Shown here: in pieces, positions 167 through 9,804 of the stretch | Layout: each line of letters opens with the position of its first letter | Numbering within the stretch: the first letter of the stretch is position 1 | Origin: an uncultured Collinsella sp. | GTDB lineage: Bacteria > Actinomycetota > Coriobacteriia > Coriobacteriales > Coriobacteriaceae | Length of the DNA: 14,360 nt | Assembly: GCA_902495265.1 (NCBI GenBank) | Contig: CABUWR010000012.1 | Coordinates: 1-14,360, forward strand | Direction: 5' to 3' | Notes under the pieces: model-generated | Seen by the model: only the letters and a program-made list of their open reading frames with translations | Told to the model about the DNA's origin: nothing | The model's database searches: none | Position numbers and translations under genes: made by a program

Positions 167-195
167 TTGACTTTAGGCAACTAAAGTTTCATACT
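167..195 (+). promoter_or_regulatory. Probable sigma-70-type promoter of the cstA leader
   Basis: A -35 box TTGACT (167-172) and a -10 box CATACT (190-195) are separated by exactly 17 bases, in a locally AT-rich stretch. Transcription would begin near 202, giving a leader of about 235 bases before cstA. This is the best promoter match seen upstream of the leader peptide. Confidence 0.6.
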
Positions 196-242: not shown

Positions 243-266
243 ATGATTGAAGAGGATTTCTCAGAC

Positions 267-311
267 ATGTTCACGCATCAGCTAAACATTATCAGCGTAG
301 TAATTATCTGA
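267..311 (+). CDS. Branched-chain amino acid-rich leader peptide (14 aa)
   Basis: A 14-codon ORF reads MFTHQLNIISVVII and ends at TGA 309-311. A purine-rich ribosome site, GAAGAGGA (249-256), lies 10 bases before the ATG. Seven of 14 residues are branched-chain (4 Ile, 2 Val, 1 Leu), with an Ile-Ile-Ser-Val-Val-Ile-Ile run immediately before the stop. It uses GTA, ATT and CTA, codons uncommon in the neighbouring GC-rich genes. The ORF lies between a good promoter and a strong intrinsic terminator, and a stable helix (274-281/308-315) overlaps it. This is the standard layout of an amino acid attenuation leader, as known for ilv operons. The peptide probably has no function of its own; its translation rate would report charged tRNA-Ile and tRNA-Val. 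It is too short for normal gene calling. No T-box sequence is visible. Confidence 0.75.
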   Translation: MFTHQLNIISVVII

Positions 312-401
312 TGCGGGTTAGCACATACAGCTAGCCCGTACGATAACGGGCGGCTGATGAAGATGAGGGCCGTCGAGCGCAACCGACGGCCCTCATTTTT
401 T
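274..401 (+). promoter_or_regulatory. Ribosome-mediated transcription attenuator upstream of cstA
   Basis: Five helices overlap in series, so each excludes the next. H1 is 274-281/308-315 (8 bp, inside the leader peptide). H2 is 312-322/330-340 (11 bp, two G-U). H3 is 334-339/346-351 (6 bp). H4 is 349-355/368-374 (7 bp, two G-U), covering the 5' arm of the terminator. H5 is 363-375/384-396, the terminator. A ribosome stalled at the Ile/Val codons would block H1, allow H2, block H3, allow the antiterminator H4 and prevent H5, so cstA is read. A ribosome that finishes and leaves allows H1, then H3, then H5, so transcription stops. This parity is inferred from pairing; no energies were computed. 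Confidence 0.65.
363..401 (+). terminator. Intrinsic terminator (attenuator) before cstA
   Basis: A perfect 13-bp stem (363-375 with 384-396) with an 8-base loop is followed by six T residues (396-401). It lies only 36 bases before the cstA start codon and after the leader peptide, so it is placed to abort cstA transcription. Confidence 0.9.
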
Positions 402-436
402 ATGTCTGAGTAGTTCTTTTTAGAGGAGGAAATGTA

Positions 437-2326
437 ATGAACGGAGTTTTGCTCATGGTTGTGGCTGCGGCGGTGCTCGCCTGCGGCTATCTGGGCTATG
501 GCCGATGGCTGGCCAACAAGTGGGGCGTTGACAAAGAGGCCCTCACGCCGGCCAAGCGCATGAAGGACGGCAACAGCTTCTCGCCCGTCTCCGCCTTCAC
601 CGCGTTCTCGCACCAGTTCAGCTCGATCTGCGGTGCTGGCCCTGTTACGGGTACGATCGTCGCCATGGCCTTTGGCTGGCTGCCCGTCGTGCTCTGGGTC
701 CTCGTCGGCGGCATCTTCTTTGGCGCCGTCCACGACTTTGGCGCCCTGTACGCCTCGATGAAGAACAACGGCAAGTCGCTCGCTCAGCTCATCGAGAAGT
801 ACATCGGCAAGACCGGCCGTCGCCTGTTCCTGCTGTTCTGCTGGCTGTTCTGCATCATTGTCATCGCCGCCTTCACCGACATGGTCTGCAAGACGTTCAT
901 GTTCACCCCGGCCGTTGACGCTTCTGGTGCTGCTACCGGTGCCATCGACTTCACCAAGTCCTATGCCGCCGGCTGCGCTGGTACCATCTCCATCCTGTTC
1001 ACCTTCGTCGCTATCGCCTTTGGTTGGGCCCAGAAGAAGTTCAACCTCACCGGCGCTGCCGAGTTCGTCACCGGCGTGGTCCTTATGGTTCTCATGTTCG
1101 CCGTCGGTATGCAGTTCCCGGTCTACCTGGATAAGTTCCAGTGGTTCGCCGTCGTCATGGTCTACCTGGTCTTCGCTGGCGCTATGCCCATCCAGATGCT
1201 CAAGACTCCGCGTGACTACCTCACTTCCATCATGATGATCGTCATGATCGTCTGCGCTGTCCTCGGCATCGTCGTCCTGGGCGTCAACGGTCAGGCCACT
1301 ATCACCGCTCCGGTCTTTACCGGCTTCTCCACTGCCTCCGGCATGATGTTCCCGGTCCTGTTCGTCTCTGTCGCTTGCGGTGCTCTCTCCGGTTTCCACA
1401 GCCTCGTTTCTTCCGGCACCTCTTCTAAACAGGTCGAGAAGGAGCAGGACGCCGTCAAAGTCGGTTACGGCGCCATGATTGTCGAGTCCTTCGTCGGCAT
1501 CCTTGCCATCATCGTCGCCGGCATCATGTTCTCCGATATGAACACCGCCGGTACTGGCGCCCTCAACGCCGGTGTCGCTTCCACCCCGTTTCAGATCTTC
1601 GCCGCCGGCATCTCCCGCGGTATGCAGGCCTTCGGTGTTGACGGCACGCTCGCTACCGTCTTTATGACCATGAACGTCTCCGCTCTGGCCCTGACCTCGC
1701 TCGACGCCGTCGCCCGCATCGCCCGCACTTCGTTCTCTGAGTTCTTTGCCCAGACCAACGACGCCCTGGCCATCGAGTCCAAGGCCGGCTACATGAAGGT
1801 CCTCGGCAACCCCTGGTTCGCCACGGTTGTCACCCTGCTTCCTGGTCTCGCCCTCGCTTTTGGTGGCTATGCCAACATCTGGCCGCTCTTTGGTGCTTCC
1901 AACCAGCTGCTCGGCGGTATGACCATGATCACCCTCGCCGTGTTCTGCAAGTGCACCGGCCGCAAGGGTTGGATGCTCTACGTGCCCGTCGTCTTCCTGC
2001 TCTGCTGCACCTTCACCTCGCTGGTCCAGAGCGCCATGGGCTGCATGGCCGCCGTCCAGGCTTACGGCTTCTTCGGCACCATCCCGGCTACCGCCACCAC
2101 GGCCGCTGTCTCCGTCGCCGCTACCAAGGGCCTGCAGCTCGTCTTCGCCGTCCTGCTGATGGTCCTGGGCCTCATCGTTGCCGTCAACTGCCTCAAGGAG
2201 TTCTTCGGCAAGGAGGCCGGTTCCATGCCCGACGAGGAGCCCGAGTGGTCCGAGATGGGCAAGGCCGAGTATGGTCGCGCCGCTGCTGCTGAGGCTCCTG
2301 CCGACGCCGAGACCGCCAAGGCTTAG
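437..2326 (+). CDS. cstA: CstA-family carbon starvation protein (pyruvate/peptide transporter)
   Basis: A 629-residue integral membrane protein with more than a dozen hydrophobic segments. It has family hallmarks: the SSICGAGPVTG segment near residue 67, GAVHDFGALYASM, SGTSSKQ in the middle, and a NQLLGGMTM segment late in the protein. Characterised CstA-family members include E. coli CstA and BtsT (pyruvate uptake, about 700 residues) and proteins linked to peptide use; this copy is of the shorter type. It ends in a hydrophilic acidic, Ala-rich tail (about residues 590-629) that should lie outside the membrane. The start is fixed by AGGAGGA (424-430) seven bases upstream. The codons are strongly C-ending, suggesting high expression. 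It appears monocistronic, with an attenuator before it and a terminator after it. The branched-chain leader suggests induction by Ile/Val shortage. The substrate cannot be fixed from sequence; pyruvate would make sense as the precursor of Val, Leu and Ile. Confidence 0.93.
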   Translation: MNGVLLMVVAAAVLACGYLGYGRWLANKWGVDKEALTPAKRMKDGNSFSPVSAFTAFSHQFSSICGAGPVTGTIVAMAFGWLPVVLWVLVGGIFFGAVHDFGALYASMKNNGKSLAQLIEKYIGKTGRRLFLLFCWLFCIIVIAAFTDMVCKTFMFTPAVDASGAATGAIDFTKSYAAGCAGTISILFTFVAIAFGWAQKKFNLTGAAEFVTGVVLMVLMFAVGMQFPVYLDKFQWFAVVMVYLVFAGAMPIQMLKTPRDYLTSIMMIVMIVCAVLGIVVLGVNGQATITAPVFTGFSTASGMMFPVLFVSVACGALSGFHSLVSSGTSSKQVEKEQDAVKVGYGAMIVESFVGILAIIVAGIMFSDMNTAGTGALNAGVASTPFQIFAAGISRGMQAFGVDGTLATVFMTMNVSALALTSLDAVARIARTSFSEFFAQTNDALAIESKAGYMKVLGNPWFATVVTLLPGLALAFGGYANIWPLFGASNQLLGGMTMITLAVFCKCTGRKGWMLYVPVVFLLCCTFTSLVQSAMGCMAAVQAYGFFGTIPATATTAAVSVAATKGLQLVFAVLLMVLGLIVAVNCLKEFFGKEAGSMPDEEPEWSEMGKAEYGRAAAAEAPADAETAKA

Positions 2327-2505: not shown

Positions 2506-4695
2506 GTGGCCAAGACGGTATATTCCGATAACCAACAAAATGTCGATGCTCTGGCTGAGCGTCTGAGCGGACAAACGTCGCTTTCTGCCGAGCGGGCAAA
2601 GCTGGTTGCCTACGACCTGCTCTGCCGCAAGGCACTCAAGATAAAGTCGAGCACGCTGGCGCAAATCTTCCGCTCCGTGGATAAGGAGTGCGATACCAAG
2701 GCGATGCGCGATGAGCTCATCGCGGCAAAGATCGTTACCAAGATCGAGGGCAGCGGCATTAACGGGCGCCCGGCGTTCTATACCATTCATGCCGAGATTC
2801 GCGATGTCCAGGAGCAGCTTGCCGAGACTGCCGAAGAGGCCGTCGAGGACGTTGTCGAGGCGCCCGCTTCGGTGGAAACAGCTCCGCGCGAGCATATCGA
2901 TACCGACGAGCTGCTTGACGAGAGCGTCGTTCGCGCCTTTACGGCCAAGGCCGGCCGCGGCGGTTTTGGCGGGGGCGGCAAGCGCGATGCTCAGCGCCGT
3001 GCCCAGCAGGAGCGGTTCCGTCGCGCCGTGGCTCAAAAGGATGAGCTCGATGCCGAGGCTGTCGAGACCGAGGTTGCTGCCGAGTCGCAGAAGCCCGCAC
3101 AGGAGCAAAAGCCCGTGGATGCCCAAGAGCCCAAGCGTCGTCGCGGTGCTCACTTTAAGGCTGCGCAGCAGGACGTCGCGCATGAGGTTGAAGAGCCTTC
3201 CGAGGTTGCAGACGATGTTGAGGAGTCTGCCAAGAGGGCTCTGGGATCGTGTCGTCCCGGCCGCGGTTTTGCGGGACGCGCGTATCCCGTAAAGCGACAG
3301 GAGAAGGACGAGCCGGCTTCGACCGCTCAGGCCGATAAGGCCGAACAGACCGAGAAAACCGTTGAGCCGGTGGCTCGCGAGCAGCAGCCTTCTGAGTCGC
3401 ACTCTGCGGCTGACACCGAGGTCAAAGCTCAACAGTCCGCTGATAAGCAGACGGGGGAGAGCGCTTCGAGCAAGCCTCGCCGCCGTCGCCACCGTGGCGG
3501 CCGTGGCTCAAATGCCGAGACTGTGGCTGAGAAGGCAGTGACGCAAAACAAGGATGCGAAGGCTGAGGCCCCGGTGGAGCAGCCCAAGCGCCAGCCGGCG
3601 AAGGGGGACAAGCCCGAACGTTCGCAAAAGAGCTCGTCCGCGCCAAAGCAAGAGCGCAAAGCTCAGGCAGATTCCAAGCGCAAATCCCAGACGCAGCCCA
3701 AACCGACTACAAACGATGCGGCCGCCCAACAGCCTGATCCGCCCGCTCATGGCGAGGTTTCGGCGTTTGCTCTGGCACGTGTCCTGGGCAGGCAGCTGCT
3801 CAAGGTCGTTCCTACGCCAATGGCGCTCTCCAAGATTAAGGAGCAACAGACTCAAATCGTTAAGGTCGAGGGCAAGGACGGTAAAAAGGCTCCGCAGCGC
3901 ACTCAGCACAACGAGATGTCTAACCGCAAGATTGCCGAGGAGATTGCGATCATCCAGGCTTGGATTGAGCAGAATCGCGGTGTCGACACGCCGGTCGCTT
4001 CGCGTCGCCAGCGCGCCTACCAGATTTTTAACGATGAGAAGGCCTTTGACGGCAAGCACGGCGAGCGCCTGATTCGGCGTATGACCGAAAAGGGCATCAG
4101 CATGCAGGCGATTAAGGTCGCCCCCAACCGCCCCGTGCACTTTACGGGTTTCTTTACTCTGGGCGCCGACAAGCCGTTCATTATGGTCGAGAACCTGGAC
4201 ACCTATGACGAGATCGTCAAGCTCCTGCGCGGCCGCAAGCATGCCAAGCTTTTTGGCACCAAGGTCGGTGGCGTAATCTTTGGCGGCGGCTGCAAGGCGA
4301 GCGTTTCGCACGCACTGGATGATTATCTGGCCGAGATCGGCTATCGCTTTAACTATGTCTACTACGTGGGCGACATCGATCGAGAGGGTGCGCGCATTGT
4401 CGAGCAGGCCCGTAATGCCAATGTCGTTGAGATTCGCCTGCATGCCGGTATGTATCGCGCCATGCTCGCCGAGCACAAGCGTCGCGTAAAGGCCGGCGGA
4501 GAGTGCGAGCCCGCGGCTGCCAACCAGGGCGTGCCGCAGAACCTAGCGGCGACGATCAAAGATTTGCCTATGGTCACGCGCGTGCAGTTCCGCAACGTGC
4601 TGCGCGAGGGCGGACGCATTCCGCAGGAGATTCTGATGACCGCCGACTATCGGGATGGCGACTCGGGAAGCTTCGACCGCATGCTCAACAATTAG
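2506..4695 (+). CDS. JetD-like TOPRIM protein with winged-helix N-terminus and RG-rich linker
   Basis: I place the start at GTG 2506 (729 residues) because AAAGGGG lies just upstream; the frame stays open back to ATG 2425 and ATG 2482, neither with a clear ribosome site. There are three parts. Residues about 5-105 look like a winged-helix DNA-binding fold. Residues about 105-410 are a low-complexity Glu/Ala/Lys/Gln linker with basic RG patches (GRGGFGGGGKR, RRRRHRGGRG), probably disordered and nucleic-acid binding. Residues about 411-729 resemble the C-terminal half of JetD (DUF2220): IFNDEK (507-512, compare the family's FGDEK), VENLDT with E562, an FGGGCK turn, and GDIDREG with D623 and D625. 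The Glu plus DxD set is the TOPRIM metal site, intact here, so nuclease activity is plausible. In Wadjet systems JetD cuts DNA captured by the JetABC SMC-like complex; no such partners are visible. A weak promoter candidate is TTGCGT 2442 / TACCAT 2466. The family link is confident; the cellular role is unknown. Confidence 0.75.
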   Translation: MAKTVYSDNQQNVDALAERLSGQTSLSAERAKLVAYDLLCRKALKIKSSTLAQIFRSVDKECDTKAMRDELIAAKIVTKIEGSGINGRPAFYTIHAEIRDVQEQLAETAEEAVEDVVEAPASVETAPREHIDTDELLDESVVRAFTAKAGRGGFGGGGKRDAQRRAQQERFRRAVAQKDELDAEAVETEVAAESQKPAQEQKPVDAQEPKRRRGAHFKAAQQDVAHEVEEPSEVADDVEESAKRALGSCRPGRGFAGRAYPVKRQEKDEPASTAQADKAEQTEKTVEPVAREQQPSESHSAADTEVKAQQSADKQTGESASSKPRRRRHRGGRGSNAETVAEKAVTQNKDAKAEAPVEQPKRQPAKGDKPERSQKSSSAPKQERKAQADSKRKSQTQPKPTTNDAAAQQPDPPAHGEVSAFALARVLGRQLLKVVPTPMALSKIKEQQTQIVKVEGKDGKKAPQRTQHNEMSNRKIAEEIAIIQAWIEQNRGVDTPVASRRQRAYQIFNDEKAFDGKHGERLIRRMTEKGISMQAIKVAPNRPVHFTGFFTLGADKPFIMVENLDTYDEIVKLLRGRKHAKLFGTKVGGVIFGGGCKASVSHALDDYLAEIGYRFNYVYYVGDIDREGARIVEQARNANVVEIRLHAGMYRAMLAEHKRRVKAGGECEPAAANQGVPQNLAATIKDLPMVTRVQFRNVLREGGRIPQEILMTADYRDGDSGSFDRMLNN

Positions 4696-5057: not shown

Positions 5058-5132
5058 TGGCTGGGACGGAGGGATTCGAACCCCCAACAGCCGGCACCAA
5101 AAACCGGAGTTCTACCGTTGAACTACGTCCCA
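5058..5132 (-). tRNA. tRNA-Gln (anticodon UUG)
   Basis: Read on the - strand, it folds into a full cloverleaf: acceptor TGGGACG with CGTCCCA; D-arm GTTC...GAAC; anticodon stem CCGGT/GCCGG with loop TTTTGGT, so the anticodon is TTG; T-arm GGGGG-TTCGAAT-CCCTC; discriminator G and an encoded CCA (75 bases with CCA). It lies 38 bases after the stop of the peptidoglycan-binding gene and just before a terminator. Confidence 0.95.
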
Positions 5133-7353: not shown

Positions 7354-9804
7354 TTATATAAGCCTAAAGTGCTCGAGCGCCTTGACGACGCCATCTTTGT
7401 CGACCGAGTCGGTGATGTAGTCGGCGCGCTTTTTGAGATAGTCCGGCGCATTGCCCATGGCGATACCGACATCGACGGCGTTTATCAGCGAGACGTCATT
7501 GCTCGCGTCGCCAATGCCGTACACGGTTCCGTGGTGGGGATCGAGGGCGTCGAGTACAGACTGGATGCCCCCGCGCTTCGTGCATTCGCGGGGCGAGATT
7601 TCGGTTACCTCGAGTTCGAGCTCGTTAAAGCACAGCAGCGGCTCAAGTGCCTTATCTTGAGCGATGTGGTTGGCGAGCGATGTAGACATCAAGATCTTGT
7701 AGGCACTGTAATGCTGCAGCTGCGTGACTGCGTCGCCCAGGGTGCGCGCGTATCCGGGGGCATCGGGGGCATCGGCACTCATGCGCACGACGCCGTTGAG
7801 GCCCTCAAAGCGGATGACCTCGCCCGATTGCTCAAGGTAGGGGGCAAGACGCTGCAGCATGCTGGGCGTCATCGACAGATCGCGAATTGCGCGTCCGTTG
7901 ATCTCGGCGTAACCGCCCGCAAGACAGACGATGCCGGTCCACGGCAGCTCAAGAAGTTTGGGGTGGATGCAGCTCAGGGTGCGTCCCGTGCAGATAAAGG
8001 CCATGTTGCCGTTGGCGACAAACTCGCGGATTGCCTGCGAAACCGCCTCGTTGGGATAGGGGGACAGATCGCGCTCGTCTTCGGGAAGCTCCTGGGCAAG
8101 TCTGGGATCTTGCCAGGCGAGCGTACCGTCGATGTCGAAGAAGCAGATATCGCCGTGCTTGTGGGTTGGGCCGGCGGCAGGGGAGGCCGAGGTGGTGGGC
8201 GCAAATTCCGGCTCGAGGCCCATGATCTGGTCAAAATGCTCTTTAACGCGGGGAACGGAGATGCCGATGATCACCTGGGCGGTCTTGCCCGTAATGATGA
8301 GGCCCTTGGCGCCCGCCGCGACAAACGACGCGTTATCTGCAACGATGGAAGGGTCTGCGACCTCGACGCGCAGGCGCGTGGCGCAGTTGGTTGCGCCCAC
8401 AATATTGCCAACGCCACCTAAAAGCTGAATTACCCGCTCAGCGAGGATGTGATCTTGATCGGATCGACTATTGACCTCGTCATTGGGAGATTGCTCTTTG
8501 GCAAAGCCGCTTTCCGTTAAACGATCGATTGCCGCGCGATTGGCGACATGATCCTCGCGGCCCGGCGTCTTAAGGTCATAGATCAAGATGAGTGCTCGAA
8601 AACTAACAAAAAAGATGAGGCTAAAGGCAAGGCCGATACCGAGCGCCAAAAGATAGGCACCGGCATGCGTGCGCATGAGCGGAATAAAGTTGAAGGCTGC
8701 CATCTCCATGAGGCCGCCCGAGAAGATGCCGACGATGCCAAAGAGATTCATGGTTGTGGCAAGGCAAGACGATAAGACGGCGTAGAGAAAAAAGAGCCCG
8801 GGGTGGGTGAACATAAAGAGAAACTCGAGTGGCTCGGTAACGCCGCAAACCACCGAGGCGATGATGGCGGGAACAAGGATGACCCTGAGGCCGGCGCGGC
8901 GTTCTGGTTTTGCGGTGGAGTAGAACGCGGCTGCGATGGCGGGAAGGCCAAAGAGCTTGACCCAGCCGGTGGCGGTAAAACCGGCCCACGGCGCAAGTTC
9001 ATTAAGGGGGCGCGTGCTATGGGAGAGGATGGGGAGCAAGCTGCTCCACGTGGCGTAGATGCCGTCGTTAATGACCAGGTTGTCGTAGTAGATCGGCATG
9101 TAGAGCAGGTGGTGCAGCCCCATGGGCTCGAGCGCTCGCTCCAAAAACACAAAGATGCCCACGCCAAAGGGGCCGACGCTCGTAAGTGCATGGCGCAGCG
9201 TTTCGGTCATTGCGTATACGGAGGGCACGATGGCGGCCGAGATAGCGGCAAGGGCAAACACGGCAAAAAAGCTGATGAGGTAGACCAGCGAGGAGCCCGA
9301 GAAGGTGCCGAGCCAATCGGGAACCTTGGCATCGTAGAAGCGGTCATGGATGGCGACGACGGTTGCCGATACCACCAGCGGGCCGATAATGCCGGTGTCG
9401 AGCGTCTTGATGCCGTCGATGACGGTGATACCGTTGGCGGGGGTCAAAGATGACGGGTACTTAAGCCCAAGGTTGTCTCCGCTCAGCTTAATGATCTCGC
9501 TCAAAAAGAAGCAATAGGCAAAATAGGCCACGAGTGCCTCGAGGCAGCAGCGTGCCGGTTGCTTTTGGGCAAGACCGATAGGCAGCGCTACGGCAAAAAG
9601 GAGCGGGAGGCGCTTAAAGACCGTCCATGAGCCGCGCTGGATGATGGCCCAAAAAACGTACCAAGGGGTTCCGTATACGGCGAGGTCGCCGACGATGTCC
9701 GCAGTCGTTGCGAGAGCGGAGACGCCGACCATGAGGCCCGATATAGAAAACAGCATGGCGGGAGCGAACATTGCCCCGCCAAAGCGTTGGATTTTTTGCA
9801 GCAT
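7354..9804 (-). CDS. PTS EIIC-EIIB-HAD phosphatase fusion (glucose/maltose/trehalose type)
   Basis: 816 residues with three modules. EIIC (about 1-425) is a ten-or-so-helix sugar channel of the glucose superfamily: it opens MLQKIQRFGGAMFAPAMLFS and carries GVTEPLEFLFMF (321-332), close to MalX-type permeases. EIIB (about 450-530) has the phosphocysteine motif NCATRLRV with Cys474. After a short linker (531-550), residues 551-816 are a complete Cof-type HAD hydrolase: DIDGT (nucleophile D557, D559), CTGRT (605-609), Lys744 in CTKRGG, GDASND (765-770), with the cap domain between. All catalytic residues are present. No EIIA is encoded, so a glucose-type EIIA must act in trans; the HAD sits where EIIA lies in C-B-A permeases. 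The fusion suggests sugar is imported as a phosphate and then dephosphorylated. GGAAGG precedes the ATG. It is divergent from a TreR-like regulator with GTTTAAAC operator candidates between them. The substrate is inferred only. Confidence 0.9.
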   Translation of the reverse strand: MLQKIQRFGGAMFAPAMLFSISGLMVGVSALATTADIVGDLAVYGTPWYVFWAIIQRGSWTVFKRLPLLFAVALPIGLAQKQPARCCLEALVAYFAYCFFLSEIIKLSGDNLGLKYPSSLTPANGITVIDGIKTLDTGIIGPLVVSATVVAIHDRFYDAKVPDWLGTFSGSSLVYLISFFAVFALAAISAAIVPSVYAMTETLRHALTSVGPFGVGIFVFLERALEPMGLHHLLYMPIYYDNLVINDGIYATWSSLLPILSHSTRPLNELAPWAGFTATGWVKLFGLPAIAAAFYSTAKPERRAGLRVILVPAIIASVVCGVTEPLEFLFMFTHPGLFFLYAVLSSCLATTMNLFGIVGIFSGGLMEMAAFNFIPLMRTHAGAYLLALGIGLAFSLIFFVSFRALILIYDLKTPGREDHVANRAAIDRLTESGFAKEQSPNDEVNSRSDQDHILAERVIQLLGGVGNIVGATNCATRLRVEVADPSIVADNASFVAAGAKGLIITGKTAQVIIGISVPRVKEHFDQIMGLEPEFAPTTSASPAAGPTHKHGDICFFDIDGTLAWQDPRLAQELPEDERDLSPYPNEAVSQAIREFVANGNMAFICTGRTLSCIHPKLLELPWTGIVCLAGGYAEINGRAIRDLSMTPSMLQRLAPYLEQSGEVIRFEGLNGVVRMSADAPDAPGYARTLGDAVTQLQHYSAYKILMSTSLANHIAQDKALEPLLCFNELELEVTEISPRECTKRGGIQSVLDALDPHHGTVYGIGDASNDVSLINAVDVGIAMGNAPDYLKKRADYITDSVDKDGVVKALEHFRLI

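Follow-up and report, generated by a model that had tools for sequence, protein, structure and literature searches.

A conserved leader before a CstA-family transporter gene of Collinsella, probably a ribosome-mediated attenuator responsive to isoleucine

CstA transporters occur widely, and what is known of their substrates, peptides and pyruvate, comes mainly from work on enterobacteria. The window analysed here, a stretch of 14,360 nucleotides, belongs to a Collinsella near C. aerofaciens, with a cstA that shares 98-100% identity with those of named C. aerofaciens loci and of the nearest genomes, and it carries this gene behind a leader resembling an amino acid attenuator. A preliminary description of this DNA had proposed a branched-chain amino acid attenuator composed of a 14-residue leader peptide with seven branched-chain residues, five overlapping helices and an intrinsic terminator immediately before cstA. 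The present analysis indicates that the leader is very probably a ribosome-mediated attenuator that senses charged isoleucyl-tRNA as its main, though maybe not its sole, signal and controls the CstA-family transporter.

The peptide and the terminator are both found where the preliminary description had placed them. The open reading frame at 267..311 on the forward strand encodes MFTHQLNIISVVII followed by a stop, 14 residues of which seven are isoleucine, leucine or valine, and is conserved among relatives with gaps that preserve the frame. Its codons include Ile at 288-293 and 303-308, Val at 297-302 and the Leu codon CTA at 282-284. The chance of at least seven such residues among 13 is 0.002 given the composition of one soluble protein of the window and 0.02 given that of CstA; peptide composition alone is thus weak evidence, and the window leader is more than chance because it is conserved. 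The Shine-Dalgarno region of the leader, at 249..258 on the same strand (AAGAGGA at 250-256, with a conserved 4-nt core), lies within the 5' arm of a long-range helix, H6, considered below. The terminator ends at 401, which is 35 nt from the start of cstA (437..2326, forward strand, 629 aa), a gene identified by PF02554 (475 bits, curated cut-off 27) and preceded by its own Shine-Dalgarno sequence, AGAGGAGG, read directly at 422..429 on the forward strand. The RNA from 205 to 410 folds with -88 kcal/mol against a mean of -54.9 for shuffled sequences (z -7.6), and none of 200 dinucleotide shuffles folds as well.

Upstream of the leader, a candidate promoter (TTGACT-17-CATACT, 167..195, forward strand) matches the consensus at 9 of 12 positions, which is weak alone given one site against 0.5 expected from shuffles. 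Its spacer contains most of a perfect palindrome at 170-187 (ACTTTAG-GCAA-CTAAAGT), possibly an operator for some regulator, and a motif of the form TTGAC...(C/G)(T/A)AAAG occurs upstream of 29 of 40 distinct leaders. The interval between promoter and leader also holds a perfect 9-bp inverted repeat (GATGTGAAC...GTTCACATC, 214-242). A conserved 5' hairpin in this interval was considered and found unconvincing, the mean z being -1.2 over 39 regions with 21 of the 39 below -1.

The leader is not peculiar to this genome. Among 91 cstA upstream regions (the window and 90 loci, many of them of the same species from two collections), 84 carry a leader of the same kind, in 40 distinct sequences. The other seven (L063, L066, L069, L078, L079, L083 and L089), from Olsenella, Parafannyhessea, an uncultured actinobacterium and uncultured Atopobiaceae, have no leader and gave no match when searched with the covariance model R1. 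A class-wide sample of 396 genomes, in which cstA was taken at 68% identity or more and the leader as an R1 match at most 400 nt upstream, has the leader before 72 of 118 cstA genes, at a median gap of 37 nt: 59 of 59 in family f1, to which the window belongs, 10 of 55 in family f3 and 3 of 4 in family f5, so that 45 of the 46 cstA genes with no R1 match fall in f3. Across the phylum, 11 of 296 sampled genomes have an R1 match at E<=1e-4, all of them in the same order.

Several features of the sequence make the leader reading frame look translated. Gap runs are multiples of three in 151 of 152 cases within the columns of the frame and in 25 of 167 past the stop (alignment A1, whose rows were cut from ATG to the in-frame stop, which fixes total length and leaves individual gaps unfixed). 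All 39 leaders that contain a CTA triplet have the first one in frame with the stop, and 36 of the 40 distinct leaders carry a 4-nt Shine-Dalgarno core between -18 and -5, against 82 of 720 control windows. The next-to-last residue is isoleucine in 37 of the 40. Reading frame, Ile codons, hairpins and terminator are conserved together in these 40 leaders and in 24 more (12 before cstA and 12 before other genes); loss of the reading frame or of the Ile/Val codons with retention of the terminator, the pattern that was named beforehand as speaking against the attenuator, was looked for and not encountered.

The five serially overlapping helices (A:B, C:D, D:E, E:F and F:G, here H1 to H5) are all present on the forward strand of the window according to folding and inverted repeats; the comparative data uphold H2, H3 and H5, restrict H1 to one clade and leave H4 unproven by covariation. 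Covariation was assessed on A1, which comprises 36 of the 40 distinct leaders (four near-identical C. aerofaciens variants and the seven leaderless regions were left out), and on A2, comprising 59 rows fitted to H2 and H5 by covariance model (L075 and duplicate loci were not entered). H2 (312-322 with 330-340), the first half of the antitermination state, has 9 of 11 pairs changed on both sides; with H4 it gives 9 of 18 double-changed pairs on A1, all in H2, and five measures that beat all 500 shuffles. The anti-antiterminator H3 (328-339 with 346-356) has 5 of 10 pairs double-changed on A1 and 7 of 10 on A2, where four measures were reached by none of 500 shuffles and one by two of them. H5 (364-375 with 384-395), which together with the T run at 396-401 makes up the intrinsic terminator (364..401), covaries in 8 of 12 pairs and came up in folding as well as in the inverted repeats, at 94%. 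It was absent from the list of a consensus terminator scan of the window, probably because part of the U run can be taken up in pairing with positions 360-363. H3 and H5 together have 13 of 22 pairs double-changed on A1, with four measures above all 500 shuffles and the fifth reached by 14 of the 500, and when the partners are slid by one to three columns, pairing drops from about 90% to 31-63% for H2 with H4 and for H3 with H5 alike. H2 and H5 together have 23 of 23 pairs double-changed on A2, above all shuffles, in an alignment that itself leans to these two helices.

The antiterminator H4 (349-355 with 368-374, GGCGGCT with GGCCGTC) is paired in 94.4% of cells on A1 and 90.3% on A2, where it exhibits no covariation of its own beyond shuffles (379 of 500 reach its paired percentage), and it therefore rests on conservation and folding. 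Independently of any alignment, the stalled-ribosome state folds as C:D with E:F in 55 of 63 distinct leaders and otherwise in 8, and the letters of E:F differ between leaders (for example GGCGGCT:GGCCGTC and GCGGTCGTGG:CCACGACTGC). Thus, H2, H3 and H5 covary, while H4 is conserved and favoured in folding. H1 (274-281 with 308-315), which lies over the leader codons, is a clade-specific helix and, whether as A:B or as A with C, is unsupported as a conserved helix across the aligned leaders.

These elements suggest the following mechanism, for which anatomy, conservation, the covariation of H2, H3 and H5 and folding energetics were computed, and from which the isoleucine signal, the stalling of the ribosome and the direction of the response are inferred. 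When isoleucyl-tRNA is scarce, the leading ribosome would stall at the Ile codons with its edge before segment C; C would then pair with D, and E would be free to pair with F, making this terminator arm unavailable so that RNA polymerase would continue into cstA. When isoleucine is plentiful, a ribosome at the stop codon would cover C, D would pair with E, and the free arm F would form the terminator with G, leaving cstA untranscribed. H1, where present, would block read-through of an untranslated leader; this helix is not conserved.

The parity between ribosome position and terminator, which the preliminary description had deduced for stalls at Ile or Val codons, is reproduced by folding, though not in every leader. 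Transcripts were folded to the end of the 5' arm of the terminator with the RNA upstream of a moving ribosome edge removed, an equilibrium treatment that is crude in taking the ribosome as a simple block. Placing the edge 6-9 nt ahead of the stop gives the antiterminator a median probability of 0.98 over the 40 leaders, which falls to 0.07 at +12; in the window the same positions give 0.98 and 0.00. If the edge is set further back, 21-27 nt ahead of the stop, the median over the 40 is 0.51-0.59, so that the outcome with no ribosome near the Ile codons appears to depend on the species, and for several relatives the antiterminator is predicted even in the absence of a ribosome. A strict switch, defined as a probability of at least 0.7 followed by one of at most 0.3, is predicted for 20 of 39 leaders and missed by 19; among shuffles it appears in 30 of 600, made as 60 from each of 10 leaders, and in none of the 60 derived from the window, a comparison of foldings only. 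The denominators here and for the stalled state are 39 for 40 and 63 for 64, the terminator parser having missed L088. The 24 further leaders have medians of 1.00 when stalled and 0.49 at +12, and their off state is therefore less clear.

A further helix becomes possible only after read-through. H6 joins the Shine-Dalgarno and start region of the leader to the segment after the terminator (249-258 and 260-269 with 412-421 and 401-410, spanning 249..421 on the forward strand), and was examined by permutation and folding. Several other C. aerofaciens loci have it with 21 pairs and no mismatch, G-U allowed, and with T-A where the window has the pair C262-G408. For 34 distinct pairs from outside C. 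aerofaciens, the native duplex averages -13.1 kcal/mol against -8.9 with swapped partners, a value as low arising in none of 2000 permutations; the leader's own partner ranks first or second in 17 of the 34 and lower in the other 17. With a short spacer to cstA (60 nt or less, n=28) H6 is strong, at a mean of -17.4, and with a long one (n=12) it is weak, at -8.1. In folding, the probability that the Shine-Dalgarno sequence of the leader is unpaired is 0.28-0.74 in terminated RNA and 0.00-0.02 in read-through RNA. After read-through, segment 401-421 would thus pair with the ribosome binding site and start codon of the leader and end its translation, and H6 can be inferred to act as a lock that halts leader translation after passage of the polymerase. 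A comparable case is known for trpL, although a literature search did not retrieve it.

The same leader also precedes genes other than cstA. Among the strong R1 matches listed for the class (85 at E<=4e-5, 72 of them before cstA), 13 lie elsewhere; one of these (G245:C42, L127) ends at a contig edge 131 nt past the leader, and the other 12 precede a different gene. Eight stand before a gene for an MHS-type metabolite/H+ symporter (L136-L138 and L140-L144), three before a 2-oxopent-4-enoate-hydratase-like gene (L122, L124 and L125) and one before a ketopantoate-reductase-like (KPR) gene (L121). Pfam and NCBIfam scans cover six of the 12 proteins (L121, L122, L124, L136, L142 and L143), the rest being assigned by sequence likeness; the symporters score 386-394 bits against a cut-off of 443, and the two scanned hydratase-like proteins 60-69 bits, far below equivalog cut-offs. 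The hydratase-like frame of L125 is open for just 92 codons, and this copy may therefore be broken. Genome G029 has a hydratase-like gene followed by a KPR-like gene, by likeness. At L124:1255-4999, forward strand, the hydratase-like gene with its leader is followed by FAD and molybdopterin subunits of the xanthine-dehydrogenase type. The peptides of these other leaders are rich in isoleucine (for example MLSIRAIKIIGIIEII, MRTICINIASIIS and MFNPQDRIITSIIR), and those before the hydratase-like and KPR-like genes, four in number, have three to eight isoleucines each with at most one leucine and one valine. Weak R1 matches (E >1e-4) were inspected for L145-L148 and L150-L153; all but L153, an MHS-type leader copy at a contig end, were set aside as chance terminators. 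Many of the other weak matches are the opposite strand of the terminators.

Which residue is sensed, and whether a peptide is sensed at all, can be weighed from these comparisons. It is conceivable that the structures, which are strong and conserved, form a constitutive terminator with an untranslated fold, such as a riboswitch or a protein-bound leader, in which the reading frame is incidental. The frame-preserving gaps, the in-frame CTA, the Shine-Dalgarno sequences and the recurrence of Ile codons before four kinds of gene all speak against this reading, as does a Rfam scan of the window without any match overlapping 160-436 at E<=5, T-box included (the sole match above gathering score was a tRNA at 5061-5132), and it appears highly improbable. 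A variant contained within the preferred explanation, with which its odds overlap, is a general branched-chain attenuator in which stalls at CTA, Val or Ile codons all relieve termination; this is possible, if clearly the less favoured form. It draws on the CTA codon found in 39 of the 40 distinct cstA leaders, on leader codon preferences (CTA for 45 of 64 Leu, GTA for 17 of 26 Val and ATT for 107 of 156 Ile) that cstA of the window hardly shares (0 of 56, 0 of 65 and 2 of 31, respectively), and on the window itself, where an edge 15 nt before the stop, roughly a stall at CTA, also gives 0.98 antitermination. Against it, valine is not constant, most of the 40 having other residues where the window has Val-Val, and the four hydratase and KPR leaders have at most one leucine and one valine each. 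Isoleucine, in contrast, is the constant residue of the cstA leaders, 38 of 40 having at least three and 38 of 40 an Ile-Ile pair. The attenuator of the preliminary description is therefore retained, with its breadth narrowed: because of the isoleucines of the cstA leaders and the Ile-rich, Leu- and Val-poor leaders before hydratase and KPR genes, the sensed amino acid is, on the sequences compared, most likely isoleucine in particular.

A different question is why an attenuator of this kind should govern CstA. The preliminary description had suggested that the transporter might bring in pyruvate as precursor of valine, leucine and isoleucine. E. coli CstA does take up pyruvate, and CstA-family proteins of E. 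coli and Salmonella have been linked to pyruvate and peptides, according to the available text of these sources (PMC5847655, PMC7730263 and, for the latter statement, PMC12632267). The window protein shares PF02554 with the E. coli pyruvate and peptide transporters CstA and BtsT but scores 190 bits against NF011590, the pyruvate/proton symporter equivalog, far below the cut-off of 1188. No relative of solved structure was found by sequence at E<=0.001. A match to ilvC (PF01450) is present in 11 of 43 Collinsella genomes and in 14 of 14 control genomes; among the 32 Collinsella genomes without a match, 30 have cstA, and all 30 keep the leader. Because most of these Collinsella genomes show no ilvC match and nevertheless retain the leader, pyruvate import feeding branched-chain synthesis offers no general rationale, and the ilv loci of six relatives that do bear ilvC are without the leader, one of them, tested against Rfam, having a T-box-like stem instead. 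An attenuator coupled to pyruvate import of this kind is accordingly improbable.

The transporter most likely brings in a source of isoleucine (peptides, isoleucine or the 2-oxo acid of isoleucine) rather than pyruvate as a branched-chain precursor. Within the 43 Collinsella genomes, ilvD/edd-type genes occur in 24, HMGL-like genes in 21, and Aminotran_4 (IlvE-type) in 42. The BrnQ carrier, likewise matched in 42, gives the cell another route for isoleucine. In one genome with no ilvC match (G017), ilvE lies directly upstream of both leader-cstA copies (L188 and L189) on the same strand; for these two genes only, NCBIfam TIGR01123 identifies the Aminotran_4 gene as IlvE, with 364 and 373 bits (cut-off 250). 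The ilvE-cstA intervals hold promoter-like sequence, and that of L189 also a terminator-like stretch, which indicates that ilvE and cstA are not one transcript. The proximity of ilvE to the leader and cstA favours import of a compound that IlvE converts to isoleucine, and both kinds of leader-bearing enzyme gene belong to families acting on 2-oxo acids. On the basis of these enzyme families, the near-universal Aminotran_4 and the arrangement in G017, it may tentatively be suggested that the leader marks an isoleucine-starvation regulon for the salvage of branched 2-oxo acids, in which the CstA-family protein and, in relatives, the MHS-type symporter would import 3-methyl-2-oxopentanoate for conversion by IlvE to isoleucine, a reading that is at present speculative. 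If true, the CstA family would gain a new substrate, and strains without branched-chain synthesis could live on the keto acids of other gut microbes. A leader that links CstA to isoleucine supply, in a lineage of which 32 of 43 genomes have no ilvC match, is in any case a testable clue to substrate and physiology.

The his, trp and ilv attenuators of enterobacteria consist of a leader reading frame rich in cognate codons, overlapping helices with parity and an intrinsic terminator. The cstA leader has the same leader frame, parity helices and terminator before its structural gene; it differs in that the target is a transporter and not a biosynthetic operon, that the early helix blocking untranslated read-through is not conserved, and that Ile codons are combined with a conserved Leu CTA. 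Closer taxonomically are the ilvB-II motif and the ilvB leaders of Corynebacterium, Mycobacterium and Streptomyces, for which the available text describes peptides rich in isoleucine, leucine and valine, terminators and proposed attenuation (PMC10272879, PMC1262725). These are actinobacterial, I/L/V-rich and terminator-bearing like the cstA leader; however, the ilvB-II and ilvB-OMG motifs precede ilvB, whereas the gene behind the window leader is cstA, and as far as that text goes the ilvB leaders belong to biosynthetic operons of other genera, whereas here cstA, an MHS-type symporter gene and two kinds of enzyme gene in Coriobacteriales are concerned. In term searches of the main texts, Coriobacteri- and Collinsella are absent from both papers, cstA from PMC1262725 and carbon starvation from PMC10272879. 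A T-box with no assigned amino acid is reported upstream of cstA1 in Bacillus methanolicus, and the authors, in the available text, doubt that it regulates cstA1 (PMC4342826); like the leader described here it is an amino-acid-responsive RNA before cstA, but of the T-box class. E. coli cstA, by contrast, is controlled by CRP and CsrA according to the available text of PMC7730263.

A literature search covering few subscription papers returned no paper on branched-chain attenuation of CstA by a leader peptide or on attenuation leaders of Coriobacteri-, and the literature found on leader-peptide attenuation in Collinsella, including the available text of PMC9413887, shows none on this leader. The mechanism is thus classical, while the RNA family, its further targets, the isoleucine link of CstA and the H6 lock seem to be new, to judge from this search. 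With them, amino acid attenuation in Actinomycetota would reach beyond biosynthetic operons to transporters and a small set of Coriobacteriales genes.

The biosynthetic loci examined are without this leader. In 11 ilv/leu-type loci, R1 gave no match at E<=1, Rfam none at gathering threshold, and a scan for I/L/V-rich reading frames listed none. Before ilvD at L175:3391-3491, forward strand, RF00230 matches a T-box-like stem I with 24.3 bits (E 0.0017, against a gathering score of 93), and this element before the ilv operon of the ilvC-bearing Collinsella relatives is a candidate divergent T-box. By eye, similar sequence lies upstream of ilvD in L171-L174 and L176.

Some minor observations concern cstA and its surroundings. 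Apparent internal stops in cstA of several genomes of genus g13 proved to be the normal end of a slightly shorter protein in the eight inspected (G074, G100, G119, G123, G152, G197, G202 and G209), each with one in-frame stop. Downstream of cstA in the window, 2506-4692 on the forward strand encodes a 729-aa protein with no Pfam match at E<=0.001, and 7357-9804 on the reverse strand encodes an 816-aa PTS EIIC/EIIB protein fused to a C-terminal HAD-type hydrolase domain.
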